Shown: positions 614 to 12,602 of the stretch, one piece after another
Position numbering within the stretch: position 1 is the first letter of the stretch
Layout of the letters: each line of letters starts with the position of its first letter
Assembly (NCBI RefSeq): GCF_000020125.1
Contig: NC_010676.1
Span: forward strand, 1,302,001-1,366,000
Direction: 5' to 3'
DNA length: 64,000 nt
Origin: Paraburkholderia phytofirmans PsJN
Lineage (GTDB): Bacteria > Pseudomonadota > Gammaproteobacteria > Burkholderiales > Burkholderiaceae
Made by a program: the position numbers and the translations under genes
The notes under the pieces: generated by a model
What the model saw: the letters and a program-made list of their open reading frames with translations, nothing else
Told to the model about the DNA's origin: nothing
The model's database searches: none

Positions 614-1576
614 TCATGACAAGGTGTGTAGCTGCCCCGTAACGCGCGCAATGAGTGCCAGGTCTGGTGAGGGAGCCAAGTCGGCGGCACTCGCCTTGTT
701 TCCCGTCGGCAGCATCGTGGAGAACATGCCTTTGAATCGGTAGCCTGCTGTGCAGGCTGGACAATATACTTCGGTATCCTTGAGTGTATCCGACCTGACG
801 ACCACAGTTGGACCGCACGTCTGGCAATACTGGAGGGGTATTCCTTCATCGCTATGGCCTGCGATGTGGTACAGGTTGAGGCTCCCACCCAGTGTCAGAA
901 ACATTTCTCCATATTCGCGATTGAACTGCGTGCCGAGATTGTCGCGTACGACAGCAAAGGCATCGTCAATCGGCATTGCCTTACGGTACGGGCGTGTACT
1001 GGTCATGGCGTCAAAGGCGTCGCAGATGCCGATGATTGCGGCCATGGGGGTGATCTCATTGCCAGCGAGGCCTAACGGATAAGCCTTGCCGTCGGGTCGC
1101 TCGTGGTGGGCGTAAACTGCGTCAGCGATGCGTTCGCCGAAAGGGTGCTTCGCAAGCAGTCGTTTGCCGACTTCAGGGTGCGTTCTGATGACGGCATACT
1201 CCGCAGCGGTCAAACGCTCTGTTTTGAGCAAGACCGAATCGGGAACGGCGATTTTGCCCAGATCATGCAGGAATCCACCCACCGAGACGTTCGCCGCATC
1301 GCGATCCGAAAGACCAATCTGTCGTGCCAGCAGACTCGCGTAACGGGAGACTCGCCACAAATGTCCGCCGGTGTAGGGGTCTCGGGCCTCTACCACCCAC
1401 GCAAGTGCGAGCAGACTATCAAGAAGCGGTCGATCCACACTGTGTGCGGATTCCGCCTGGCCGAACAGACGTGAAGCGAGGCTGAGCATCGTTTTTAGAG
1501 TCATGGTCACAATGGAAGCATTTCTCAGGGACATTTCTGGCAAACGGGAAGCCGCTGCAAACGACGGACTGTCCAT
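614..1576 (-). CDS. HD-GYP domain protein with C-terminal zinc-ribbon-like module
   Basis: 320 aa. The HD-GYP domain spans about residues 48-240, with the HD pair at 104-105 (GGFLHDLGKIAVP) and the family motif at 157-167 as HHERPDGKAYP, where the usual GYP is AYP. The metal-binding histidines are retained, so c-di-GMP phosphodiesterase activity is possible but not certain. The C-terminus carries two CxxC pairs (C251/C254 and C272/C275) that look like a zinc ribbon and are not part of a standard HD-GYP enzyme. An exact ECF-type promoter (1627-1652) lies about 50 bases upstream, so it is probably driven by the sigma factor at 5661. The start is not certain because no clear ribosome binding site precedes it; ATG codons at residues 15 and 25 are alternatives. 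Confidence 0.85.
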   Translation of the reverse strand: MDSPSFAAASRLPEMSLRNASIVTMTLKTMLSLASRLFGQAESAHSVDRPLLDSLLALAWVVEARDPYTGGHLWRVSRYASLLARQIGLSDRDAANVSVGGFLHDLGKIAVPDSVLLKTERLTAAEYAVIRTHPEVGKRLLAKHPFGERIADAVYAHHERPDGKAYPLGLAGNEITPMAAIIGICDAFDAMTSTRPYRKAMPIDDAFAVVRDNLGTQFNREYGEMFLTLGGSLNLYHIAGHSDEGIPLQYCQTCGPTVVVRSDTLKDTEVYCPACTAGYRFKGMFSTMLPTGNKASAADLAPSPDLALIARVTGQLHTLS

Positions 1577-1626: not shown

Positions 1627-1652
1627 TTCGTTCAGAAAGTGCTTCGGGTTAC
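1627..1652 (-). promoter_or_regulatory. ECF sigma (SigF-type) promoter for the HD-GYP gene
   Basis: On the minus strand GTAACC (1652-1647) and CGAA (1630-1627) are separated by exactly 16 bases, matching the known Caulobacter SigF promoter pattern with no mismatch. The predicted transcript start near 1620 is about 45 bases upstream of the HD-GYP start codon. Confidence 0.75.
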
Positions 1653-1734
1653 ACGGAAGAGGGTATTTATTTGCGACGGCAATGCGGTCCAAACCGAGTA
1701 CTGACCTGCGCTCATCTGAAGAAATTGTGTCATG

Positions 1735-3837
1735 TCATCCGGCGGATGAATTGCTTTTCGCTGTTCTGGCGGGCGTGGCGTTGTCGAGCGCATGGAAGAG
1801 CGTCGAAGTTTGCAAGATCTCAGGCAGCAATTGCCCTTGTGGCATGCGAGGCCCATATACCACGTCGAGCGGAATGCCGAAACGACCGAAACGCTGGATG
1901 TAGGCGAGCACTCCGGGGTTATACCGGCTCCAGTCGGCTCGCATGCGCACGATATTGTCCTGTCTGAGCCGGGTGCGCACGGCAGCCGTGTCCAGAACGG
2001 ATAGCTCATTGACCTTGCAGGTGAGACACCAGCTTGCCGTTACGTCGACAAGCACAGTCTTGCCGCTCGCGACCAGCGCGCTGATTGCATTCGGATCGAA
2101 CGCTTGCCATTCGGTCGGCGGAGCGCTTCGGTCTCCTGTGCCGAAAGGGGGGAGCGAGGAAATTGCAATGGCGCAGCACGCGAGGAGCGCAGTCGCTGCG
2201 CCTGACCATCGCGCGGTCCGCAGGCTTCCCCATCGGGTCTCGGCGGCCCGCACGGCAAGCATGGCAATCAGCACGATACTGACGAGTGACGCGACGGCCA
2301 TCCCCGCAATATTCCACAACGACGCAATCAGCCAGATAGAGGTCGTGAGCAGCAGCAGGCCCATGATCTTGCGCAACTGGATCATCCACTGGCCGGGGCG
2401 CGGAAGCCGCGTCGCGAGCGACGGCGCCAGTACCAATGTCAGGAAGGGAAGTGCCATTCCTACCCCGAGCGCGAGAAGCACCGCCGTAATCTCGAGCGGC
2501 CTACGTGCCAATGCAAAGCCGACCACGGTGCCGACGAGCGGAGCCGAGCACGGTGTGGCAAGAAGCGTAGAAAGCATGCCGCCGAGGAACGCCTCGACAA
2601 GCGGCCCCCGATTGGTTGCACCGCTCGCACCTCCGGAAAGGAATGGCGGAAGACCGATCGGGAGCCAGTCAAAGAAGCTTGCCGCAAACAGCGTCGTGAC
2701 GACGGCCATGCCTGCGAGGAACCACGGTTGCTGGAACTGTATGCCCCATCCAAGCGACGCACCCGCGAGTTTGAGGATGGACAGCACGGCGGCAAGCAAT
2801 CCGAACGAAGTGACGATTCCCAGGGCCGTTGCGAGCGCCACCCGCCTTGCCGTTTTGCGTCCGGTGCTTGCGGCTTTCACTACCGAGAAAACCTTGATTG
2901 AAAGAACGGGCAACACGCATGGCATGAAGTTCAGAATCAGGCCGCCAAGCAGCGCCAAGCCCAGAATGACGACGATGCCGTGACCGTCGTCTCCCGTGGG
3001 GACGACTGATGCGGTCATGAATTCGGCCGCTCTGGATCCGTCCACCACCGTCAGGCGCAGCGGCTCTTTCGCTGCAGCGGCAGGCGGCAATTCGACTTCC
3101 AGTGCAGCCCGGTGGCCGTGGTTTGAGAGGTGTACGTGTGGCGCTGCGGGCAGACCGGCCTCGGCTCCTTCGACGAACAGGTCGGGCGACAGAAACGGGG
3201 TGCCCTCGCTGCGCAGATCGACCTTCAGGCGCCGGCCGGCGGAGGTTTGCTCCAGCGTGCTATGCACCACGCCGATTCCGGCCTCTGCGGGCGTCTGCGG
3301 CACCCTTTGCGCCGCTGCGGCGATAGCTGCGGCTTCGCTTGATGGTCCGTCCATGCCCGGCGGCAAGGTGAGCGCCACCTCCGCATGTTCGGGCACGCAA
3401 ACATTCGCGCAACTCGCATAGTCGAGCGTCAGCGCAATGCGGGTCGCCTCGTGCGGATGGTCCAGCTTAAGGCTCACCGGCAGAATCAGATCGCCCGTAT
3501 AGACACTGTTTTGCAGACCCGAGATAACGAGGCGGGACGGCGCCGGCCAGGACACGGATGCCGATGCGACATTCCGGGACCGGGACCAGTCGAAAATCGG
3601 CGCGATGCCGGCATCGCCAGGGGTGCGCCAGTAACCATGCCAGCCGTTCGGATAGCGAAATTCGACGCCTATCTGCAGCGTGTTCCCGGCTACGCCGTCG
3701 GTTGCCGTGATGATGCGCACACTGGCGCGCTGATCGCCGGCCCAGTTCGAGGACGCCGCACGAGCCTCGAACGATGGAGCAAGAAGAAGCGTTGCGACGA
3801 GGACGAAGAAGGCGCCAACACGAGTGAATCGGGGCAT
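1735..3837 (-). CDS. Thiol:disulfide interchange protein, DsbD/ScsB-like
   Basis: 700 aa from the chosen ATG, which has a strong GAGGAG site 7 bases upstream; an in-frame start 19 codons earlier has none. There is a signal peptide (ending near ARA, residue 27), then an N-terminal periplasmic domain with the CANVCVPEHAE cysteine pair. A DsbD membrane domain follows, with NFMPCVLPVLSIKVFS and LATPCSAPLVG supplying its redox Cys-Pro helices. A C-terminal thioredoxin domain carries WCLTCK near 603-608. DsbD proteins carry electrons from cytoplasmic thioredoxin to periplasmic partners. The N-terminal domain resembles ScsB-type (copper-sensitivity suppressor) proteins rather than E. coli DsbD. It follows the DUF1223 gene by 77 bases on the same strand, so the two probably form an operon. 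Confidence 0.9.
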   Translation of the reverse strand: MPRFTRVGAFFVLVATLLLAPSFEARAASSNWAGDQRASVRIITATDGVAGNTLQIGVEFRYPNGWHGYWRTPGDAGIAPIFDWSRSRNVASASVSWPAPSRLVISGLQNSVYTGDLILPVSLKLDHPHEATRIALTLDYASCANVCVPEHAEVALTLPPGMDGPSSEAAAIAAAAQRVPQTPAEAGIGVVHSTLEQTSAGRRLKVDLRSEGTPFLSPDLFVEGAEAGLPAAPHVHLSNHGHRAALEVELPPAAAAKEPLRLTVVDGSRAAEFMTASVVPTGDDGHGIVVILGLALLGGLILNFMPCVLPVLSIKVFSVVKAASTGRKTARRVALATALGIVTSFGLLAAVLSILKLAGASLGWGIQFQQPWFLAGMAVVTTLFAASFFDWLPIGLPPFLSGGASGATNRGPLVEAFLGGMLSTLLATPCSAPLVGTVVGFALARRPLEITAVLLALGVGMALPFLTLVLAPSLATRLPRPGQWMIQLRKIMGLLLLTTSIWLIASLWNIAGMAVASLVSIVLIAMLAVRAAETRWGSLRTARWSGAATALLACCAIAISSLPPFGTGDRSAPPTEWQAFDPNAISALVASGKTVLVDVTASWCLTCKVNELSVLDTAAVRTRLRQDNIVRMRADWSRYNPGVLAYIQRFGRFGIPLDVVYGPRMPQGQLLPEILQTSTLFHALDNATPARTAKSNSSAG

Positions 3838-3914
3838 CGCTTGCTCCTCATCGAGAAGATTGTAAGTACATCGGGTTTTCACAAGGCGTCCCACCGAGAC
3901 GGAGGGAGCGCACG

Positions 3915-4607
3915 CTAAGGCTCATCTGTCACGCGGGCAGCGCCGACAATGTGTCCGTCCGGGGCCTCGAGCAATACCGCGGTCTTCTCGCCCACAGGGA
4001 CCTGGGGGTTGAACATAGCCGGTTTGCCAGTCCATTGACCAATCGGCTCGAACGAGCGAACGATGTTGGACTCCTTCAGCGTTCGCCCTCCGTTTTCGCC
4101 ACGCCCGACGGCGGTCACGTGCTGCGCGTCGTAACCCACCAGAATCACCTGCGCGCTTCCGGAGCCGGCACCGACCGAAACCATAATGGCGTTGCCTTTG
4201 CGCACCGCGGACAACGGCGCGGACGTTGAATCCGCAGCCTTCGCTTTCTGAATCGCGACCTCGGCGGACGAGCGGTCCGAACCCACGAGGGCAGTTGTTC
4301 CGTCGACGACCATTTCGGGTGTGTAGGAGCCGTCGCCGAAGCGTCGCCCGTATTCAGCCTGACGTTGAGTGGCGATATCGAGGGAAAAAGGGTCCTTCCA
4401 TCCGAGGCTGTTCCAGTAGGTGACGTGAAAAGCCAAAGGGAGAATGTCGCTTCGCTGCTGACTTAACTCCGACAGATAGGCGTCAGCCGGCGGACAGGAT
4501 GAACAGCCTTCGGACGTGAAAAGTTCGACAACCACCGGTCGGGGCATTGCTGCAGCAACCGGGAGAGCCACAAGCAGTGAAATGGAAGCAAGCAGACGGG
4601 ATAGCAT
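3915..4607 (-). CDS. DUF1223 secreted thioredoxin-like protein
   Basis: 230 aa with an N-terminal signal peptide (cleavage near VAAA, about residue 20). The motif VVVELFTSEGCSSCPPADA and the later THVTYW-like and YTPEMVVDG stretches are diagnostic of DUF1223, a thioredoxin-fold family with a CxxC-type cysteine pair. The biochemical function is not established. The position directly upstream of the DsbD/ScsB-like gene suggests it receives electrons from that membrane reductase (inference). No exact ECF promoter was found upstream of it. Confidence 0.85.
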   Translation of the reverse strand: MLSRLLASISLLVALPVAAAMPRPVVVELFTSEGCSSCPPADAYLSELSQQRSDILPLAFHVTYWNSLGWKDPFSLDIATQRQAEYGRRFGDGSYTPEMVVDGTTALVGSDRSSAEVAIQKAKAADSTSAPLSAVRKGNAIMVSVGAGSGSAQVILVGYDAQHVTAVGRGENGGRTLKESNIVRSFEPIGQWTGKPAMFNPQVPVGEKTAVLLEAPDGHIVGAARVTDEP

Positions 4608-4879
4608 GAGTTGACTCCTGGTGAGGATCTTTCATGCATTGGTCGCGGTGGGGCAGGCGATATGACAGCCCGACGAGAAAAAGCTGAGGGGCCTCTTAAG
4701 CAGCGTCGTTGTTATTGGGAACCCTGAAAGGGGGAACAATTCCGGTTATATCTCGTGTCATCTTTGGCGCCGAGCCACGACCAAAGGACGGAAGGTAAGT
4801 GTCCGTTGTAGTCAGGTGAAGCGTTGCCTTTCCGCTATTTGCCGAGCGGTGGGCAGACGTCGAACCGGAGAACCCTGTC

Positions 4880-5560
4880 ATGTCATTGCAGAAACGTCTC
4901 GATGCCTTCAAGGCGACATTCGAGTCCGGGCTACCTCCTTACAATGTGCACCGTTCTGCCGTCGATACGCTCCAGCGGGCGACCGACGAACTGATCGAAT
5001 CCGGTCTTGCTGAGCGAGCAAAAAAGGTCGGCGACGTTGCGCCGTGTTTTATCCTGAAGGATCCAGACCACTGGCCGATCGGTTCGCGCAAGCTGATTGC
5101 CGACGGTCCGCTGGTACTGACGTTCTATCGCGGCGTGTGGAGCCCATACTGCAATCTGGACCTTCAGGCGCTGCAGGCGGCACTGCCCGACATCGTCGCC
5201 CGTGGAGCGAGCCTGATGGCAATTTCGCCGCAGAACGCGGTCAATAGCCGCAGGACGATCCATGAGAACCGCCTCAGTTTCCCGATACTCGGCGACCCAC
5301 GCGGTGAACTTTCGGCAGCCTACGGACTGCGCGTCGCGTTGCCGGACTATCTTGTCGAACTGTACCTGACCACATTCGGGACCGACCTGTCGTCATTTAA
5401 CGACGACCCCTCGTGGACGCTGCCGATGCCGGCGAGGTTCGTCATCGACCAGGACGGCATCATCGCTTACGCCGAGGTGAGTCCGGACTTCACGAAACGT
5501 CCCGACCCCGCCGAGCTGCTTCCGGTTCTTGATGGACTTGTCGCCGGAGGCCGGGCATGA
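4880..5560 (+). CDS. AhpC/TSA-family peroxiredoxin-like protein with Ser at the first active-site Cys
   Basis: 226 aa. It aligns by eye with the peroxiredoxin-like protein at 18001: both have an N-terminal helical segment, then a thioredoxin-fold domain with FYRG and a PYCN stretch. The family normally has WCPYC; here the motif is WSPYC (Ser88, Cys91; the codon is AGC at 5141-5143). Loss of this Cys should abolish or alter ordinary peroxidase chemistry. It lies just upstream of the ECF sigma gene on the same strand. A weak two-to-three-mismatch version of the ECF promoter (4795-4820) is not convincing. Confidence 0.85.
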   Translation: MSLQKRLDAFKATFESGLPPYNVHRSAVDTLQRATDELIESGLAERAKKVGDVAPCFILKDPDHWPIGSRKLIADGPLVLTFYRGVWSPYCNLDLQALQAALPDIVARGASLMAISPQNAVNSRRTIHENRLSFPILGDPRGELSAAYGLRVALPDYLVELYLTTFGTDLSSFNDDPSWTLPMPARFVIDQDGIIAYAEVSPDFTKRPDPAELLPVLDGLVAGGRA

Positions 5561-5644
5561 GATTTTTGCACCACGGCTCCAGGAGGGAAACATTTCTTTG
5601 CTATCCGCGTAAATGTTTATCACGCAGTTTATTTGGTGCCAACT

Positions 5645-5670
5645 GTAACCCGAACCCGCAATGAACCGAA
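5645..5670 (+). promoter_or_regulatory. ECF sigma autoregulatory promoter overlapping the annotated sigma start
   Basis: GTAACC (5645-5650) and CGAA (5667-5670) are separated by exactly 16 bases with no mismatch to the SigF-type consensus. The -10 element lies inside the first codons of the sigma ORF that begins with ATG at 5661. A transcript from this promoter would therefore begin downstream of that ATG. Confidence 0.65.
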
Positions 5671-6233
5671 CTACCGAAAATGGACCGGCGAGTCCCGTCG
5701 AAGAGAGACTGAAAGCTCTCTTCGTGCGCGGTCTGGATGGGAACGCGGCGGCTTATCAGGCGTTTCTCAGCGACCTGACCGGGCATCTGCGCGGATTCCT
5801 GAGAAAGCGTCTCTTCTATCTGCAAGACGATGTCGAGGACCTGGTCCAGGAGATTTTGCTGGCAGTGCATAATGGACGCCATACCTACCGTCCGGACCAG
5901 CCGTTGACGGCCTGGGTGCATGCGATCGCCCGCTATAAACTGGCGGACTTTTTTCGCGCACGCTCGCGCCGGGAAGCCTTGCACATGCCGCTGGACGATG
6001 AACTCGAGATCTTCGCCACCTGTGATGTCGAACCTGCGGAGGCCCGGCGTGACCTGAGCAAGCTGCTCGAACAGTTGCCCGACCGTCAGCGCCTGCCGAT
6101 TCTGCACGTCAAGCTGGAAGGGCTGTCGGTGACTGAAACCGCAAAGCTCACTGGCCTGTCGGAGTCGGCGGTCAAGGTTGGCGTGCACCGCGGTTTGAAA
6201 GCATTGGCACTGAAGTTTCAAGGCACATCATGA
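5661..6233 (+). CDS. ECF RNA polymerase sigma factor, SigF/NrsF-partner type
   Basis: 190 aa. Region 2 is seen as [15 protein letters not shown] followed by [17 protein letters not shown]; region 4 as [16 protein letters not shown] plus the helix-turn-helix [21 protein letters not shown]. It overlaps the anti-sigma gene by 4 bases (ATGA), the usual arrangement of an ECF sigma with its membrane regulator. The ATG at 5661 gives the longest frame, but the ECF promoter runs through it. A shorter product starting near CTG 5709 or GTG 5724, just before conserved region 2, is possible when that promoter is used. The five-promoter set in this window is its likely regulon. Confidence 0.9.
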
Positions 6234-6871
6234 AGACAGAGGATCTTGTTTCACTGCTGGCCGCGGGGGTGCCCGCGATCGATCATAACCTTTCGGCAAA
6301 GCGATTCAGCTGGGCGATGTTATGCGGCGGTGTCGGTTCCACGGTGCTCATGGCAATCGTTTATGGCGTTCGCCCCGATATCGGCGCGGTGATTAAGACG
6401 CCGCTGTTCTGGATCAAGCTGGCTCTTCCGCTGTGCCTCGCATTCGCTGCGTTGCTGGCGACGGCGCGACTATCCCGGCCAGGATCTGCGGTAGGCCGCG
6501 CGTGGGCCGCGCTTGCCGCGCCTGTGCTCACCGTGTGGATTGCGACGCTCGTCCTGTTGTGGTTGGCCCCTCCCGATGCGCGCTTGCCCCTCGTAATGGG
6601 CAATACGTGGCGCGTATGTCCACGTAATATCGCGTTGCTTTCCGTGCCAGTTTTCATCACGGTATTCTGGGCTATGCGAGGTCTGGCACCCACGCGTCTC
6701 AGGCTGGCCGGTGCCGCAGGCGGCCTGCTGGCGGGAGCGACTGCCGCGGTTGCTTACTGTTTCCACTGCCCCGAGATGGGTGTGCCATTCTGGGCAGTCT
6801 GGTATCTCCTCGGCATGCTGATCCCCACGCTTGCTGGCGCGGCGCTGGGGCCCCGGTTGCTAAAGTGGTGA
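6230..6871 (+). CDS. nrsF: NrsF/DUF1109 membrane anti-sigma factor
   Basis: 213 aa with about six hydrophobic membrane segments and no periplasmic domain, typical of DUF1109. Two cysteines, Cys130 (NTWRVCPRN) and Cys180 (FHCPEMG), sit in the positions conserved in Caulobacter NrsF, where cysteines are needed to sense chromate or cadmium and release SigF. It is translationally coupled to the sigma gene by an ATGA overlap. The expected role is to hold the sigma factor at the membrane until a thiol-reactive metal or oxidant signal arrives (family knowledge). Confidence 0.88.
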
Positions 6872-6979
6872 GTTGGACCGCTGGAAGGTCAAACTGTGTT
6901 CAGCCAGCGCTATGCAGAGGTGCGTGCTGAACACCTGGCGCCGCGTACCTGAAACCCAACCTTACTTTTTGCGTGTTCT

Positions 6980-7005
6980 GTAACCAATCCGGGCCAATAG
7001 GCGAA
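6980..7005 (+). promoter_or_regulatory. ECF sigma promoter for the DUF4148 transcript
   Basis: GTAACC (6980-6985), a 16-base spacer and CGAA (7002-7005): an exact match to the SigF-type pattern. The predicted start near 7012-7014 coincides with the beginning of a perfect hairpin and a small ORF. Confidence 0.75.
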
Positions 7006-7012
7006 ATACCTT

Positions 7013-7147
7013 ATGAAGCACAGGTATAAGCCTGTGCTTGAGCGATCGACGCCGGGAATGCCGGACGACCTGGAGCGCCAGGATTGGTTGGCATTCGGGC
7101 AGGTCGACCAATACTCCGATCAATACCCCTTTGGGAGAGTATTGTGA
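7013..7147 (+). CDS. Possible 44-aa leader ORF upstream of and overlapping the DUF4148 gene
   Basis: An ATG at 7013, 8 bases after the -10 element, opens a 44-codon frame that ends in TGA at 7145-7147 and overlaps the GTG start of the next gene in a GTGA junction. The product would be soluble and charged, beginning MKHRYKPVLE. If transcription starts at the predicted site the mRNA would be leaderless for this ORF. There is no recognisable family. It may be a translated leader that couples to the secreted peptide, or chance. Confidence 0.3.
   Translation: MKHRYKPVLERSTPGMPDDLERQDWLAFGQVDQYSDQYPFGRVL
7016..7039 (+). promoter_or_regulatory. 5'-terminal mRNA hairpin
   Basis: AAGCACAGG (7016-7024) and CCTGTGCTT (7031-7039) form a perfect 9-bp stem with a 6-base loop. 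It would be the first structure in the ECF-driven transcript. No U-tract follows, so it is not a standard terminator; an mRNA-stabilising 5' stem or a regulatory leader is more likely. Confidence 0.5.
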
Positions 7148-7389
7148 AAGTGAACAAGTTGGTCATTATCATGGCCGTGGCAACTCTCGGCATGTCGGCG
7201 CTGGCGAGTGCGCAGCCTGTGCAGGGCGCTGATGGAAACTCAATAGCGGCAGGATCGAATCAAGGTCCGAAGACTCGCGAGCAGGTGCGTGAAGAACTGG
7301 CTCATGCGCGCATGAACGGTACTATCCCGCGTTTCGGCAATCCCGATCCTTATGGGCCTGGCGGCACACCGAATTCCATCCGGCGCTAA
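7144..7389 (+). CDS. DUF4148-like small secreted protein
   Basis: 81 aa from GTG 7144, chosen because GGGAG lies 6 bases upstream and because it places the signal peptide (KLVIIMAVATLGMSALASA) at the N-terminus. The mature peptide is about 58 residues, with TREQVREELAHAR matching the short helical segment of DUF4148 proteins that are common in Burkholderiales. Function is unknown. An exact ECF promoter lies about 130 bases upstream, so it is probably an envelope stress peptide under the local sigma factor. Confidence 0.7.
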   Translation: MKVNKLVIIMAVATLGMSALASAQPVQGADGNSIAAGSNQGPKTREQVREELAHARMNGTIPRFGNPDPYGPGGTPNSIRR

Positions 7390-7866
7390 ACGGAGGGCAG
7401 GGAATAGCCAGGAAAACTGACCGTCGAGGTTCAATCCGTTCGCGGTAGTAATGCGGCTACGGAGGATCATGACGTGAGGCACGTCTCGTGGTATGCGAAA
7501 ACCAGGTTCCGGTCGGAATGAGTCGGGTGTCGTATATGGTTATCCTAATGATTGGCTGTTGAGAAGGAAACTGAAGATCCAATACCAACGATGCAGACGG
7601 CGACGAAGCGCGAGCGCGAGTTGATGCAAATGCAAAACCGGTTGCTGGAACTTTCCAAAATGCACTGATACTGTCCCGTGCGTCGTTCCCGATTCTGCCT
7701 TGTGTGCGATTTCGACATTCCCACAAGCAGCGGTTCGGCAACCGGATGTGAGGCGGTCGGCTCCATCCGGGCGACGTCGTTGTGATCGGACCACCTGTCA
7801 TTGGTGCGAGTTCGCTCGATGAGTCATGGAGAACGGACCCGGTATTACACGGCAGCAGAGGCAGAC
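7390..7866 (+). other. Intergenic stretch, nothing recognised
   Basis: About 480 bases between the DUF4148 and patatin genes. Short overlapping frames exist on the minus strand but show no family similarity or ribosome binding sites. No ECF-type promoter was seen. Confidence 0.5.
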
Positions 7867-8751
7867 ATGTCTACTTATCCGAATTTGTCCGCTCCACCCG
7901 GCTTGACCGCCTTTGTGTTCGCAGGCGGCGGCAGCCTCGGCGCGATCGAAGTTGGCATGCTGCGCGAGTTGCTCGATCATGGTGTGCATCCGGGTTGCGT
8001 GATCGGCGCATCCGCCGGTGCGATCAATGCGGCGTATTTTGCTGGCCGGCCCGACGGCGATTGCGTAGCTATGCTCGAATTACTGTGGTGTCGGATCAGG
8101 AGGCGGGACATCATGCCGCTCACCATGTTCGGGTTGCTCGAGATGGTTCTGAGTCGGCGCTCCCACCTTGTCGAAGCCACAGCGCTGCGCATGCTGCTGG
8201 AAAAGAATTTGTCGTATTCCCGGGTGGAGCATGCGGCCATACCACTTCACATTGTCGCGACGGACATGCAAAGCGGCAAAGAAATTATCCTTTCGTCTGG
8301 CCCGCTGGTGGATGCCGTCCTCGCGAGCGCTGCGATTCCCGGTGTGTTCCCGCCGGTGCGCATTGATGGGGTGGATCTGGTCGACGGCGGCGTGGCGAAC
8401 AATACGCCGATCTCCGTGGCCGTCTCACTTGGTGCGACACGCGTCATTGTGCTTCCGGCCGGGTTTGCCTGCGCAATGCGCAAGCCGCCCGGTAATGCAA
8501 TCGCGCAGGCCATGCACGCGCTGACACTTCTCATTGCGCGTCAGCTTGTGCGCGATCTGGAATCCTATTCATCCCGCGCAGAGATCTTTGTAGTGCCGCC
8601 ATTGTGTCCGCTCGATGTGTCGCCTTACGACTACACGCAGTGCGACCGCCTGATTGAGCGTGCGGCTGCGAAGACGCGTGCATGGTTGAACGAAGGCGGT
8701 CTTGAGCGCGGAGTAATCCCGGGTGAGCTACGCGAACACAAGCATGCGTGA
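7867..8751 (+). CDS. Patatin-like phospholipase / esterase
   Basis: 294 aa. The oxyanion loop GGGSLGAIEVG, the nucleophile elbow GASAG (GxSxG with the catalytic Ser) and the catalytic Asp in DGGVANN are all present, so the Ser-Asp dyad is complete. Family members hydrolyse acyl chains from membrane lipids in or near the cytoplasmic face. The ATG at 7867 is preferred because the conserved patatin domain begins about 15 residues later. TTG 7801 and ATG 7819 are in-frame alternatives that would add an unrelated charged extension. Confidence 0.87.
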   Translation: MSTYPNLSAPPGLTAFVFAGGGSLGAIEVGMLRELLDHGVHPGCVIGASAGAINAAYFAGRPDGDCVAMLELLWCRIRRRDIMPLTMFGLLEMVLSRRSHLVEATALRMLLEKNLSYSRVEHAAIPLHIVATDMQSGKEIILSSGPLVDAVLASAAIPGVFPPVRIDGVDLVDGGVANNTPISVAVSLGATRVIVLPAGFACAMRKPPGNAIAQAMHALTLLIARQLVRDLESYSSRAEIFVVPPLCPLDVSPYDYTQCDRLIERAAAKTRAWLNEGGLERGVIPGELREHKHA

Positions 8752-8844
8752 CTAGAGCGAGCGGAGGCGCTAGACGACAGTGGCATCGTTGCCGTGATTC
8801 TGTCGCCCTCTCACGTAGTCGTGCATCGCCATGAAATCACCCGA

Positions 8845-9309
8845 TCACGACCTGGGCGACCTGTCGCCAAGCAGATAGTCAATCGATATCAGGCCAGGCC
8901 CCCAGGCTGCAATTCCCAGTGCCATTGCCAACCAGGTCAGATGGATGGGCCAGCCGTCCGGTACGGTCAGCTCAACGATGCATGTCATCAATATCAGGCC
9001 GGCCGCGGCGAACCGGGTTCCGAGGCCAAGCACGAGCAGCACAGGGAATGTCACCTCGCCGAGCCCCGACAGAAACGCAAAAACAGCTGGCGCGGGAAAC
9101 GGATACGGACCACCTGGGAGGTGCAACTTGAACTCGTCCGTGAACAGGTCGATCGCCGTATCGCTCAGTTGAAGGAAGCCGTGCCATTTGAGAATGCCCG
9201 ACTTCCAGAACGGCACAGCGAGGGCAAGCCGCAGGACGAGTTGAACGAGCCACGGTTGTGCGAGCTGCTGGATCAACCGCCTCGCCGTGCCAATCGCAGA
9301 TACGACCAC
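8845..9309 (-). CDS. DoxX-family membrane protein
   Basis: 154 aa with four hydrophobic segments and the DoxX landmarks PFWKSGILKW near the N-terminus and PIHLTWLAMALGI...GPGLISIDYLLG near the C-terminus. DoxX proteins often accompany bufferin (DUF2282/DUF692/DUF2063) operons and other redox stress genes. It is 268 bases downstream of the DUF2282 gene on the same strand, so cotranscription from the ECF promoter at 9943-9968 is plausible. The start is a GTG with no strong ribosome binding site; an in-frame stop 11 codons upstream limits extension. Confidence 0.82.
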   Translation of the reverse strand: MVVSAIGTARRLIQQLAQPWLVQLVLRLALAVPFWKSGILKWHGFLQLSDTAIDLFTDEFKLHLPGGPYPFPAPAVFAFLSGLGEVTFPVLLVLGLGTRFAAAGLILMTCIVELTVPDGWPIHLTWLAMALGIAAWGPGLISIDYLLGDRSPRS

Positions 9310-9333
9310 GTCCGGAATCGGCAGTTTTACGTT

Positions 9334-9546
9334 CTATAGGTTCGACATCTCTGTGAATCTCCAAGTTGGACGGCGACAAATACGCCGGCTGGGATCGTCC
9401 CTGCCAGGTTGGCCAGTCACGTCCGCGAGGCTCGCACGCAGGTGCTGATGCCTGAAACGGGTCCAGGCAAGCCCGTGTGCGACAGGCATCGCGTGGAGGG
9501 GGCGGTCTGTCCGGCCAACTGCCGTTGTCATCGTGGACCTGCCCAT
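9334..9546 (-). CDS. Uncharacterised 70-aa ORF between the bufferin and DoxX genes
   Basis: The ATG is preceded by a good GAGGAAGGGG site, and the frame follows the DUF2282 stop by 30 bases. The product is basic, starts MGRSTMTTAVGRTDRP and lacks membrane segments or cysteine motifs. It does not resemble DUF692 or DUF2063 proteins, which normally occupy this place. It may be a small real gene or a decayed remnant. Confidence 0.25.
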   Translation of the reverse strand: MGRSTMTTAVGRTDRPLHAMPVAHGLAWTRFRHQHLRASLADVTGQPGRDDPSRRICRRPTWRFTEMSNL

Positions 9547-9576
9547 GGCCGCCCCTTCCTCGTGTGGTTCGCCGAA

Positions 9577-9888
9577 TCAGGACTTCAACGGGGTGAGCGA
9601 GCCGTGGCCGCCACCCGGCACTTGGATGCTCGTGCAGGTGCCGCCCTGAACGAACTTCCACGAGTTACCCTGGAAATCCATCGCGGATGTGCCCTGACAC
9701 GTGGTACCGGGACCGGCGGCGCAGTCGTTTTGCCCCTTCAGGGCAACGCCGTAGCACTTCTCCTTGTGCGCGGCGACAGCAGCGGCTCCTTCGGCGGGTG
9801 TAAGTGGTGCTGCATGGGCGACTGATGCAAGCAGGCTCGCGACAACGCCGGCGAGGAGGGTGGAGCTGACCGTGATCTTTGTGGACAT
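9577..9888 (-). CDS. bufA1: DUF2282 bufferin precursor (BufA1-like)
   Basis: 103 aa from ATG 9888, with GGAGA upstream; a longer frame exists but adds no conserved residues. It has a signal peptide to about residue 27 (VAHAAPL) and four cysteines in the order [21 protein letters not shown] and GGTCTS, which is the DUF2282 signature. BufA1 proteins are precursors of bufferins, peptides modified by a DUF692 (MNIO) enzyme with a DUF2063 partner and implicated in copper sequestration in the periplasm. Neither partner gene is adjacent here. An exact ECF promoter lies 55-80 bases upstream. Confidence 0.85.
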
Positions 9889-9942
9889 GGAATTTCTCCA
9901 GTAGTTGGGATGGAAGGTACCCGTGATGGATACGTGATCTAA

Positions 9943-9968
9943 TTCGTGGGCAGTAGATGTCTGGTTAC
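9943..9968 (-). promoter_or_regulatory. ECF sigma promoter for the bufferin gene
   Basis: On the minus strand GTAACC (9968-9963) and CGAA (9946-9943) are exactly 16 bases apart. The predicted transcript begins near 9935, leaving a leader of about 47 bases before the bufA1-like ATG. Confidence 0.78.
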
Positions 9969-10293
9969 AGGGGAATCGCTTTTTTTTGCTTTCGACGTGT
10001 GGAGCGATGATGTCTGCCAGAAGCGCCGTGGTCCAACCGCTCGCAGTAGTTCGCTGCCGGTTGCCAGCCGGTTGCAGCACACTGCCGTTTTTTTTATCGA
10101 CGGTCGACGCGCTGAAGTGGTTCCAGTCGTCGGGCACGAACGGACCGCGTGAGTGCCACCCGGGTTCGGGACAGACTGGACGGCCTGAGTTTTGCATGTT
10201 TATTTTGTATTGCTAAACAAAAAGGACGATTACGCACATCCAATGTTTCCTCCAGCCTGGCATCTGAGCGGCGAAGAAGATTCTTCGACCGCC
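9969..10293 (+). other. Intergenic region between divergent ECF promoters
   Basis: About 325 bases between the bufferin promoter (minus) and the NDH-2 promoter (plus). It contains T-tracts near 9979-9988 and 10088-10095. No convincing gene or RNA was seen. Confidence 0.5.
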
Positions 10294-10319
10294 GTAACCG
10301 TGTGGCCGCCGGAGACGAA
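10294..10319 (+). promoter_or_regulatory. ECF sigma promoter for the DoxX/NDH-2 fusion gene
   Basis: GTAACC (10294-10299), a 16-base spacer and CGAA (10316-10319), an exact match to the SigF-type pattern. It lies 193 bases before the start codon, giving a long leader that contains a 9-codon ATG ORF at 10331. Confidence 0.7.
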
Positions 10320-10511: not shown

Positions 10512-12602
10512 ATGTTACGAAAGACCCTTAAACGTGCCTGCGGTTTCGGCCTCGCGCTGCGCGTGCTATGTATGCCCTGGGTGCTGTTGTTTGCCCGGAT
10601 CTGGTTTGGACAGGTCGTCTTCGTGCATCAGATCATGACGATGGCAGAAGGCCCAAATGATGGTCTGTTTTCCGGCGGCCTGCATGTCCCGTCCGGGCTC
10701 GATGCAGCGCTGCACAGTGTGGTGCCGTTGCTGCTTACCATGGGGCTGCTGGCTCGTCCTGTTGCGCTGGTGCTGCTCATCGAAACAATCGCCGACAGTC
10801 ACGGTGCGCTGGCGGTGGGCGCACAGGGAGCCAAACTCGCGCTCCTTTCATGGCTCATCGTAAGCGGGGCGGGGGCCATGTCGCTCGACAATCTTCTGGG
10901 GCGCGGCGTGTCATGGATTCCATTTCGCCCGATAAGGCTCACGCGTGGGCTTTATGTCTGGTTCGAACGCTATCTGGGTCCGCTTCTTCAGTTTGTTATT
11001 CGTGCCGGGCTTGCCACTTCACTCGTTAACTTCGTATTGCCAACGGGTTCGTTGTTGCAGAAATCGATGTTGGGCGCCGCGGCGACTTCTCCTGTTCACC
11101 CAGCCTGGTGTGCGGCGGCGCTCGCGTTGGCGCTGACGCTTGGCTGCGCGACGCGCTTTGCCGCGCTCGTCATCGCGGTGATGGTGCCAGTGGCCGGTAT
11201 CGCCATGTCGACCGACGACCGGCTGGCAGTCCTGCTTCTTCTTTTGGTGCTTGTGGTCGCAGGCGGTGGCGCATTTTCCGTCGATTGGCTGCTCGACCGG
11301 TGGACGGGCACCAAATCGCAGGAAGACGATTCCGACCCAGAGGATCTGCCGCATGTCGTCGTAGTCGGGGGCGGCTTTGGCGGCGTCGCAGCCGCGCAGG
11401 GACTGCGCAATGCGCGCTGTCGGGTCACGCTGATCGACCAGCGCAACCATCATCTGTTTCAGCCGCTGCTCTATCAGGTGGCTACGGCCGCGCTGTCGCC
11501 CGCGGAGATCGCCACGCCGATCCGCAGCCTGTTCCGGCGGCAGCGCAACGTTCAGGTCATGCTGGGGCAGGTGACGGGGGTGGATGCGGTCGCGCGCGAG
11601 GTACACGTTGGTACGCTAGCCGTGAAATTCGACTATCTGGTGCTGGCGACAGGCGCTCGCCACAGCTATTTTGGCAAGGACAGTTGGGCGCCTTTTGCAC
11701 CGGGCCTGAAGAGTATCGAAGATGCGACCGATGTGCGCAGTCGCCTGTTGCGGGCGTTCGAGGAAGCGGAAAGCGCGGCGAGCGAGACCGAGCGGGCCGC
11801 GTGGCTGACTTTCGTGATCGTCGGCGGCGGTCCCACCGGCATCGAACTGGCGGGTGCCATCGCCGAACTGGCCCGGCACGGGATGGCCGAGGAATACCGC
11901 AAGATCGATCCGGCCCGCGCTCGCGTGATCCTGTTGCAGTCGGGCCCGCGCATCCTGCCCACTTTCGCCGCTACGCTATCGGGCGCGGCAGAACGCTCAC
12001 TGCAAGCGCTCGGGGTCGAGGTGCGGCTCGACACCCGGGTGCTGGGCGTCGACAGCGAGGGTGTCGACATTGGAGGGCAGCGCATCGCCGCACGTACCGT
12101 TCTATGGGCGGCGGGCGTGGCAGCGTCGCCTGCGGCTCAATGGTTGAACCGGACCGCTGATCCGTCGGGACGGCTTGCCGTGGGCGCCGACCTGTCCGTG
12201 CCGGACCTGCAAAGGATCTATGCGATAGGCGATACGGCATCCTGTCTGGGATGGCGCGGCGCAGTTGTTCCTGGTCTCGCACCCGCGGCCAAGCAGCAGG
12301 GCCTGTATGTGGCCGGCGTGATCGCGGCCAGTCTTTCGGGGCGGCGCCCGCCGCCGCCGTTTCGCTACCGGCATTTTGGCAGTCTTGCCACGATCGGGCG
12401 TCAGGCGGCTGTTGCCGAGATCGGCAAACTTCGCGTATGGGGGGAGCCCGCGTGGTGGTTTTGGGGCGCAATTCATATCGCCTTCCTCGTCGGTGGACGG
12501 AACCGGGCCATCGTTGTTCTCGATTGGCTCTGGGCGTATCTCACCTACCGGCGCAGCACCCGGCTCATTACAGGCGATACGCGAGACAAGATGATGGATT
12601 GA
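10512..12602 (+). CDS. DoxX domain fused to type II NADH dehydrogenase
   Basis: 696 aa from ATG 10512. Residues up to about 300 are hydrophobic, with two DoxX-like halves. From about residue 320 there is a pyridine-nucleotide disulfide oxidoreductase domain with a first dinucleotide fold VVVVGGGFGGVAAAQGLR, an NADH fold VIVGGGPTGIELAGAIAEL and the FAD-binding RIYAIGDTAS. NDH-2 enzymes oxidise NADH and reduce quinone without pumping protons. The fusion would tether the flavoprotein to the membrane through the DoxX part. An ECF promoter upstream places it in the stress regulon. The upstream in-frame extension to TTG 10368 is unlikely coding because it is low-complexity and precedes the membrane start. 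Confidence 0.88.
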   Translation: MLRKTLKRACGFGLALRVLCMPWVLLFARIWFGQVVFVHQIMTMAEGPNDGLFSGGLHVPSGLDAALHSVVPLLLTMGLLARPVALVLLIETIADSHGALAVGAQGAKLALLSWLIVSGAGAMSLDNLLGRGVSWIPFRPIRLTRGLYVWFERYLGPLLQFVIRAGLATSLVNFVLPTGSLLQKSMLGAAATSPVHPAWCAAALALALTLGCATRFAALVIAVMVPVAGIAMSTDDRLAVLLLLLVLVVAGGGAFSVDWLLDRWTGTKSQEDDSDPEDLPHVVVVGGGFGGVAAAQGLRNARCRVTLIDQRNHHLFQPLLYQVATAALSPAEIATPIRSLFRRQRNVQVMLGQVTGVDAVAREVHVGTLAVKFDYLVLATGARHSYFGKDSWAPFAPGLKSIEDATDVRSRLLRAFEEAESAASETERAAWLTFVIVGGGPTGIELAGAIAELARHGMAEEYRKIDPARARVILLQSGPRILPTFAATLSGAAERSLQALGVEVRLDTRVLGVDSEGVDIGGQRIAARTVLWAAGVAASPAAQWLNRTADPSGRLAVGADLSVPDLQRIYAIGDTASCLGWRGAVVPGLAPAAKQQGLYVAGVIAASLSGRRPPPPFRYRHFGSLATIGRQAAVAEIGKLRVWGEPAWWFWGAIHIAFLVGGRNRAIVVLDWLWAYLTYRRSTRLITGDTRDKMMD

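Follow-up and report, generated by a model that had tools for sequence, protein, structure and literature searches.

Genes and SigF-type sites of the island

We analysed a 64,000-nucleotide stretch of the Paraburkholderia phytofirmans PsJN genome (contig NC_010676.1, positions 1,302,001 to 1,366,000; hereafter the window), focusing on the gene sigF1 for an extracytoplasmic function (ECF) sigma factor, the adjoining anti-sigma gene nrsF1, and the promoter-like site at the start of sigF1. A preliminary description of this DNA had reported five exact copies of GTAACC-N16-CGAA around these genes, and all five were recovered at their coordinates and on their strands: 1627 (-), 5645 (+), 6980 (+), 9943 (-) and 10294 (+). 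In shuffled versions of the window sequence the mean number of matches was 0.06, and none of 100 shuffles reached five. The genes run in the order HD-domain gene, DsbD, DUF1223, AhpC/TSA-like, sigF1-nrsF1, DUF4148, patatin-like, DoxX, bufferin 1 and NDH-2-like. Features of the window are as follows, the promoters being putative.

614..1576, minus strand: HD-domain protein with a degenerate GYP (AYP) and C-terminal CxxC pairs (Pfam HD_5, E=6e-34)
1627..1652, minus strand: SigF-type promoter before the HD-domain gene, exact motif
5645..5670, plus strand: SigF-type promoter overlapping the sigF start codon, exact motif, ATG 5661-5663 within the spacer
5661..6233, plus strand: ECF sigma factor SigF1 (Sigma70_r2, r4_2; PRK12536, 329 bits, cut-off 250)
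6230..6871, plus strand: anti-sigma factor NrsF1 (DUF1109; PF06532, 246 bits; Cys130 and Cys180 present)
6980..7005, plus strand: SigF-type promoter before the DUF4148 gene, exact motif
7144..7389, plus strand: DUF4148 small protein (PF13663, 46.9 bits)
8845..9309, minus strand: DoxX-family protein of a shortened bufferin operon (PF07681, 60.5 bits)
9577..9888, minus strand: bufferin precursor 1 (DUF2282, four Cys; PF10048, 77.5 bits; NCBIfam BufA2 below cut-off)
9943..9968, minus strand: SigF-type promoter before bufferin 1, exact motif, about 80 nt 5′ of the gene
10050..10075, minus strand: promoter-like site, one mismatch (GCAACC...CGAACTA), the distal of two before bufferin 1
10294..10319, plus strand: SigF-type promoter before the NDH-2-like gene, exact motif
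10512..12602, plus strand: NDH-2-like flavoprotein (Pyr_redox_2, 164 bits; NDH2_C, 38.9 bits)

Three more exact sites lie just left of the window, at C1:1297057 (-), 1301234 (-) and 1301348 (+), making the island larger than the preliminary description had stated: in total it holds eight exact sites, two sigF-nrsF pairs and three nrsF genes, the latter being all the NrsF genes of the genome. On the minus strand left of the window are found sigF2, nrsF2, a site, bufferin 2, MNIO, DUF2063 and the third nrsF; farther right a CxxCxxCC gene and a thioredoxin-CcdA pair stand back to back, with one site each. Upstream of sigF2 (locus L015, 13804-14773, minus strand) there are also fragments, judged by eye to be short-chain-dehydrogenase-like, and no SigF site; where sigF2 starts is not clear-cut.

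The motif is the published SigF/ECF16 motif (PMC3511200, PMC8315932; statements from the literature here and below draw on parts of the papers cited). SigF1 consists of sigma regions 2 and 4 only, as ECF16 membership requires, nrsF1 adjoins sigF1, likewise a mark of that group, and NrsF1 has the two cysteines expected of the group's anti-sigma factors. The sigF1 stop and nrsF1 start codons overlap. The earlier proposal that SigF-type promoters form a local regulon around sigF-nrsF is supported by both the published motif and its local clustering. What emerges from the sequence appears to be an ECF16-type (SigF/NrsF) local regulon of bufferin, thiol-redox and NDH-2-like genes, which is of a known type and larger than described.

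A search of the whole genome (8.21 Mb, three contigs) for exact matches returned 14, compared to 16 for the reversed motif that served as control. The genome-wide enrichment that the preliminary description had offered as a check is therefore absent globally and present only locally: eight of the 14 matches fall within 15.3 kb (C1:1297057-1312319), a span for which the control rate predicts 0.030 (P ~1e-17), and the interval originally described holds five matches as compared to 0.017 expected (P ~1e-11), values that are only descriptive because both spans are bounded by hits and were chosen after these had been seen. The base preceding the -35 element, a feature unused in the search, is T in seven of the eight island sites as compared to one of the six other genomic matches. 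Similarly, CGAA is followed by CTA, TTA or ATA in seven island sites (the HD-gene site, with TTC, being the sole exception) and in none of the other six, and the ten bases from -19 to -10 contain 6-9 A/T in the island sites as compared to 2-6 elsewhere.

The A/T tract recurs in relatives. Among 77 loci of other species fetched by sigF similarity, 1.48 Mb in total, there were 196 exact sites and only 2 reversed-control matches, and the A/T fraction of these 196 sites is 0.70-0.94 over nine consecutive positions as compared to 0.29-0.53 farther upstream. Before the NDH-2-like gene only 45 of 230 non-motif bases are invariant (six sequences, six species), and before bufferin 1 only 59 of 230 (eight sequences), whereas all ten motif bases are invariant in both cases, partly by construction since motif-less sequences were dropped first, a step that affected only the CxxCxxCC gene (L023). 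This alignment left out sigF1, none of whose sequences passed. Chance or mere shared ancestry would agree with the missing genome-wide excess, but is scarcely credible in view of the clustering, the independent promoter features and the retention of sites despite considerable divergence of the upstream DNA. We infer that an ECF16-type sigma factor uses the island sites as promoters.

Distances between sites and genes were likewise consistent, as judged from an unfiltered count over the stretches scored, several of which repeat one genome (L190, L192, L193 and L197 apparently come from the genomes already represented by L023, L024, L025 and L027). The site lies 75-76 nt upstream of the HD gene in 6/6 stretches (two pairs being repeats of one genome), 81-84 nt upstream of the thioredoxin gene in 6/6, 152-165 nt upstream of the DUF4148 gene in 8/8 (three pairs being repeats), and 98-218 nt upstream of the NDH-2-like gene in 9/9. 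Bufferin genes have it at 72-78 nt, on that scoring's own scale, in all stretches scored except L194, and in L024 and L025 a second exact site precedes the proximal one by about 108 nt, giving tandem promoters. For the CxxCxxCC gene the site was found at 109-114 nt in four of six stretches, being absent in L023 and L190 (one genome), and for the DUF1223 gene in three of seven, with none in the window. In the stretches scored, no site was found for the AhpC/TSA-like gene, DsbD, DoxX or sigF2. DUF1223 genes with SigF sites were seen at L025 8854 and L195 7299 and in L034, L035, L037 and L039-L044, the Caballeronia ones being 36-39% identical.

Two of the earlier functional assignments were altered. 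The HD protein had been taken as HD-GYP and as a link to c-di-GMP-type signalling. The HD-GYP family motif is HHExxDGxGYP. The protein reads HHERPDGKAYP, without GYP, and scores 92 bits against a cut-off of 400 for the NCBIfam c-di-GMP phosphodiesterase, so that this link is not upheld. For the supposed NDH-2/DoxX fusion, the NDH-2 domains are clear and the DoxX part is borderline: the N-terminal piece reaches 23.0 bits against a cut-off of 23.6, and DoxX is unlisted for the full protein, making a DoxX-like N-terminal membrane part possible.

The bufferin 1 operon resembles published bufferin clusters, which encode ribosomally synthesized and post-translationally modified peptides, in its DUF2282 precursor, DoxX partner and ECF/NrsF neighbours; unlike standard clusters it is without MNIO and DUF2063 (PMC12452194). 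Indeed, no match to either was found between 9309 and 9577, whereas both are present in the second, intact bufferin operon about 15 kb to the left (L015 10971-12663). Precursors without a neighbouring MNIO have already been described (PMC12452194). We propose that the orphan bufferin 1, if it is matured, depends on maturation in trans. Among the relatives, L197 has MNIO and DUF2063 near full length behind bufferin, L195 pieces of both, and L190 a DUF2063 piece.

The island shares its functional theme, periplasmic metal and thiol/oxidant stress, with the ECF16 or ECF16-like regulons of Caulobacter (PMC3511200; for copper, PMC8224329), Bradyrhizobium (PMC3420878), Brucella (PMC8315932) and Cupriavidus (PMC10304878).

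Conserved overlap of the sigF start codon and the putative promoter

The preliminary description had placed the site at 5645-5670 upstream of the sigma gene. It overlooked that the sigF1 layout is GTAACC-N10-ATG-N3-CGAA, placing the ATG (5661-5663) in the spacer between -35 and -10. The site thus does not precede the gene, and its reading as an ordinary upstream autoregulatory promoter is not supported. This overlap is conserved. In 35 of the 77 loci a site occurs at -16 from the aligned start, and in all 35 the ATG occupies the same place in the spacer, as compared to only 2 of 161 other sites. With the window counted, the ATG is present in all 36 sigF orthologs having a site at -16, although these were picked for GTAACC at that position, a selection that tells against the interpretation offered below. 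Thirty-nine of the 77 alignments begin at residue 1; 35 of these have the exact site, L090 has GTAACG in the same arrangement, and in L045, L083 and L084 no site stands at that position. Across orthologs, entropy falls to zero at GTAACC, ATG and CGAA; the stretch separating the -35 from the ATG has 0.6-1.7 bits.

The same layout was found in Paraburkholderia xenovorans LB400 (L064), in P. largidicola, where the annotated sigF start is the overlap ATG, in four genomes that are apparently Cupriavidus, and in C. campinensis. Conjugative plasmids of Stenotrophomonas and Pseudomonas have it with GTAACT, and the start annotated there is again this ATG. A further 30 loci (of 38 listed places), several of which repeat species of the 77-locus set, comprised 18 sigF genes with ATG at offset 16, 11 loci with no SigF and one SigF with another offset. 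A gene tree divides the overlap sequences among several groups with weakly supported nodes between them, and so neither establishes nor rules out a single origin. Other layouts exist as well: in a group around P. tropica and P. nodosa the site lies 258-365 nt before the aligned start, and candidate starts with ribosome sites follow it. In a phylum-wide set, 20 of 32 loci (those with sigF on the plus strand) were read for layout and 13 of them had a relaxed motif, in every case 55-65 nt before the E14 codon; two are overlap members.

Whether translation begins at the spacer ATG bears directly on how the site would act. Protein constraint in SigF1 is evident from E14 on, with E14, L17 and L20 conserved, and in codons 5-13 of the xenovorans-type group changes fall mostly at third positions (8/16/63), which together argue for this ATG as the point where translation starts; the pattern is less clear in the other three groups (17/8/20, 27/46/47 and 79/52/128). 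The alternative is ordinary positive autoregulation, in which translation of the SigF1 message would begin after the -10, at a start that is non-standard or shortens the protein. For example, a GTC start has been described for the ECF sigma factor SigR of Streptomyces (PMC5472188), codon 10 is GTG or TTG, a possible start, in 16 of the 36 orthologs, and 11 of the 13 distant loci have their start codon after the -10. In L191, moreover, a one-base deletion shifts the sigF1 frame behind the ATG, leaving the ATG out of frame, although this stretch lacks bufferin 1 and matches the NDH-2-like gene over a 45-residue piece only. These points, the last three of which also count against the use of the spacer ATG, are opposed by the invariance of that ATG where the promoter itself does not require it, by protein constraint already at codons 14-21, and by the composition of codons 6-21, which contain no ATG, GTG or TTG in 18 of 36 orthologs, the window included. 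A downstream standard start shared by all 36 orthologs was sought and rejected: codon 10 could serve in 16, codon 17 in 9, codon 20 in 6 and codon 22, which is not conserved as a start, in 14.

Bradyrhizobium japonicum EcfF-OsrA (PMC3420878) offers a precedent for this alternative. It resembles the present system in being ECF16, in having thiol/disulfide targets (DsbD-like and thioredoxin) and in a transcription start that overlaps the annotated start codon, and its authors favoured a distal start. In B. japonicum, however, the mapped start is at the ATG, whereas in P. phytofirmans the ATG precedes the -10 and codons 6-21 are without a standard start. Weighing both sides, we regard ordinary positive autoregulation of sigF1 as rather unlikely.

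Proposed feedback at sigF1 and the anti-sigma genes

A transcript starting after the -10 lacks the ATG, which makes classical positive autoregulation doubtful. We consider it probable that the island combines a SigF regulon with the absence of simple positive autoregulation at sigF1. In the mechanism that we propose, the membrane anti-sigma factor NrsF would hold SigF, and released SigF would switch on a copper/thiol-stress island whose putative targets are the two bufferin operons, the periplasmic thioredoxin and CcdA, the CxxCxxCC protein, the HD protein, DUF4148 and the NDH-2-like enzyme. The SigF-initiated message at sigF1, being without the ATG, would give no simple self-amplification from that site; a basal promoter lying upstream would set the level of SigF1, and at the site itself SigF-RNA polymerase would either block basal transcription or yield a message usable only for NrsF. 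The net effect would most likely be a loop without positive gain. Here we infer both the use of the start codon and the sign of the feedback. The usual picture of ECF sigma factors is a positive loop, and, if this mechanism is true, a conserved promoter that excludes the start codon of its own sigma factor would provide a simple means of inverting the loop's sign. The island would, in addition, propose new SigF targets and an orphan bufferin.

A broader reading, which we hold tentatively and at somewhat less than an even chance, is that in a broad Burkholderiaceae group and on some conjugative plasmids the start inside the promoter would ensure that sigma-driven transcription never makes more sigma. 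The site would then act as a brake, shutting off the basal message and/or supplying anti-sigma factor only, and extra anti-sigma genes would stand under the same promoters. In its favour, nrsF is the first gene behind the site in 11 loci and a second nrsF has its own site in 7, among 204 sites, and no exact SigF site occurs within 330 nt before sigF2 in 11/11 stretches (about eight genomes).

The two ways in which such a brake could work can be considered separately. In the first, SigF-RNA polymerase would start inside sigF and only NrsF1 would be translated. Exclusion of the sigF start codon from the message would suit this idea, as would the nrsF-first and second-nrsF arrangements of other lineages and the position of nrsF3 (L015 10238-10879), which encodes an NrsF paralog and comes last in the SigF-driven bufferin 2 operon. 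In fact, nrsF3 ends such an operon in nine of ten stretches that have one (nine genomes; L194 lacks nrsF3), a count in which the L199 precursor scores best as bufferin 1 and the L190 precursor was matched as a fragment only. No terminator-like site was found in the gap before nrsF3 in its own genome. On the other hand, the nrsF start overlaps the sigF stop in 35/35 overlap-group loci scored, which suggests translational coupling and weakens the case for a message used for NrsF only. The nrsF ribosome site is also weak: -3.0 kcal/mol for the window and between 0 and -1.1 for L028-L033. A stronger nrsF ribosome site in the overlap group had been considered as possible support, and the comparison went the opposite way (on average -4.7 kcal/mol as compared to -8.6 in the other group). 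An anti-sigma-only message is therefore possible, if doubtful.

In the second, bound SigF-RNA polymerase would block sigF-nrsF transcription arriving from upstream, amounting to plain negative autoregulation. The site does cover the gene start, Caulobacter sigF is served by SigF and a second regulator that apparently compete within -37 to +37 (PMC3511200), and rpoQ-rsqA of Cupriavidus metallidurans is reported to be RpoD-dependent (PMC10304878), although its rpoQ has an ordinary layout. Set against this, a sigma-70 scan of 4700-7400 identified no sigma-70-type site that could serve as a basal promoter upstream of sigF1, and occlusion is, like the first route, conceivable without being probable. 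A conserved TTTATTT/AATAAA upstream of sigF was considered as a distinct basal promoter and discarded, since the 196 sites as a rule have an A/T tract at that place.

Apart from the missing basal promoter and the weak, coupled nrsF start, several other observations weigh against the proposed feedback. NrsF2 has both conserved cysteines, like NrsF1, whereas NrsF3 is without the first of them in 9/9 copies (T in seven, A in two), and since the B. japonicum anti-sigma factor needs that cysteine for sigma binding (PMC3420878), NrsF3 may not be a working brake. The ribosome site of sigF itself is near nil (mean -1.1 kcal/mol; -6.1 in L028 and L030-L033), which is explained by no reading; values for sigF in the other group are the best among several candidate starts. 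Positive autoregulation has been reported for B. japonicum ecfF (PMC3420878) and Brucella bcrS (PMC8315932), the similar B. japonicum overlap was resolved by its authors as a downstream start, and copper induces both SigF and NrsF in Caulobacter (PMC8224329), where under chromium and cadmium the response is given as 'not strongly' (PMC3511200).

It is also possible, though not favoured by us, that SigF2 or another ECF sigma factor, rather than SigF1, is the main reader of the island sites. SigF2-NrsF2 adjoins the bufferin 2 site, SigF2 is 75% identical to SigF1 over 170 residues, and both belong to the PRK12536 family. However, the single-NrsF genomes G009, G033 and G045 carry a SigF1-type gene with an overlapping site (L151, L150 and L152), suggesting that the site goes with the SigF1 type even where there is no second pair.

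Relation to known systems and mobile relatives

The island shares with Caulobacter SigF-NrsF, the ECF16 prototype (PMC3511200; for copper, PMC8224329), the promoter, the sigma/anti-sigma pair and a DUF2282-DUF692-DUF2063-DoxX bufferin operon among the targets. It differs in having two pairs and a third NrsF, in the sigF start codon inside the promoter, and in extra targets, namely the NDH-2-like, HD and DUF4148 proteins and thioredoxin-CcdA. A promoter of the sigma gene ahead of its start codon is common in the ECF16 group but was not made a requirement for membership; at sigF1 the ATG lies between -35 and -10. In C. metallidurans the gigPABT bufferin-type operon is divergent from the ECF16-like pair rpoQ-rsqA and is induced by copper and gold (PMC10304878); unlike in the window, rpoQ of strain CH34 has an ordinary layout, with in-frame starts only after the promoter, and it is other Cupriavidus that show the overlap. 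Deletion of rpoQ reportedly raised rather than lowered gig expression, which the authors ascribe to compensation (PMC10304878). Because of the ordinary rpoQ layout, the CH34 expression data were unusable as a test of the overlap. In a literature search that did not cover subscription papers, we came across no account of an ECF16 promoter in Burkholderiaceae that contains a start codon, and no match combining NrsF with Paraburkholderia.

Mobile elements carry related arrangements. For example, on conjugative plasmids of Stenotrophomonas and Pseudomonas (L209 and L210) sigF-nrsF, a DUF2282 bufferin gene and an HD-domain gene occur together. Similarly, in pMR68 of Pseudomonas sp. K-62 (L213 2792-2817) an exact SigF-type site stands directly after a sigF-nrsF pair and about 170 nt 5′ of a MerT-family mercury transporter gene.

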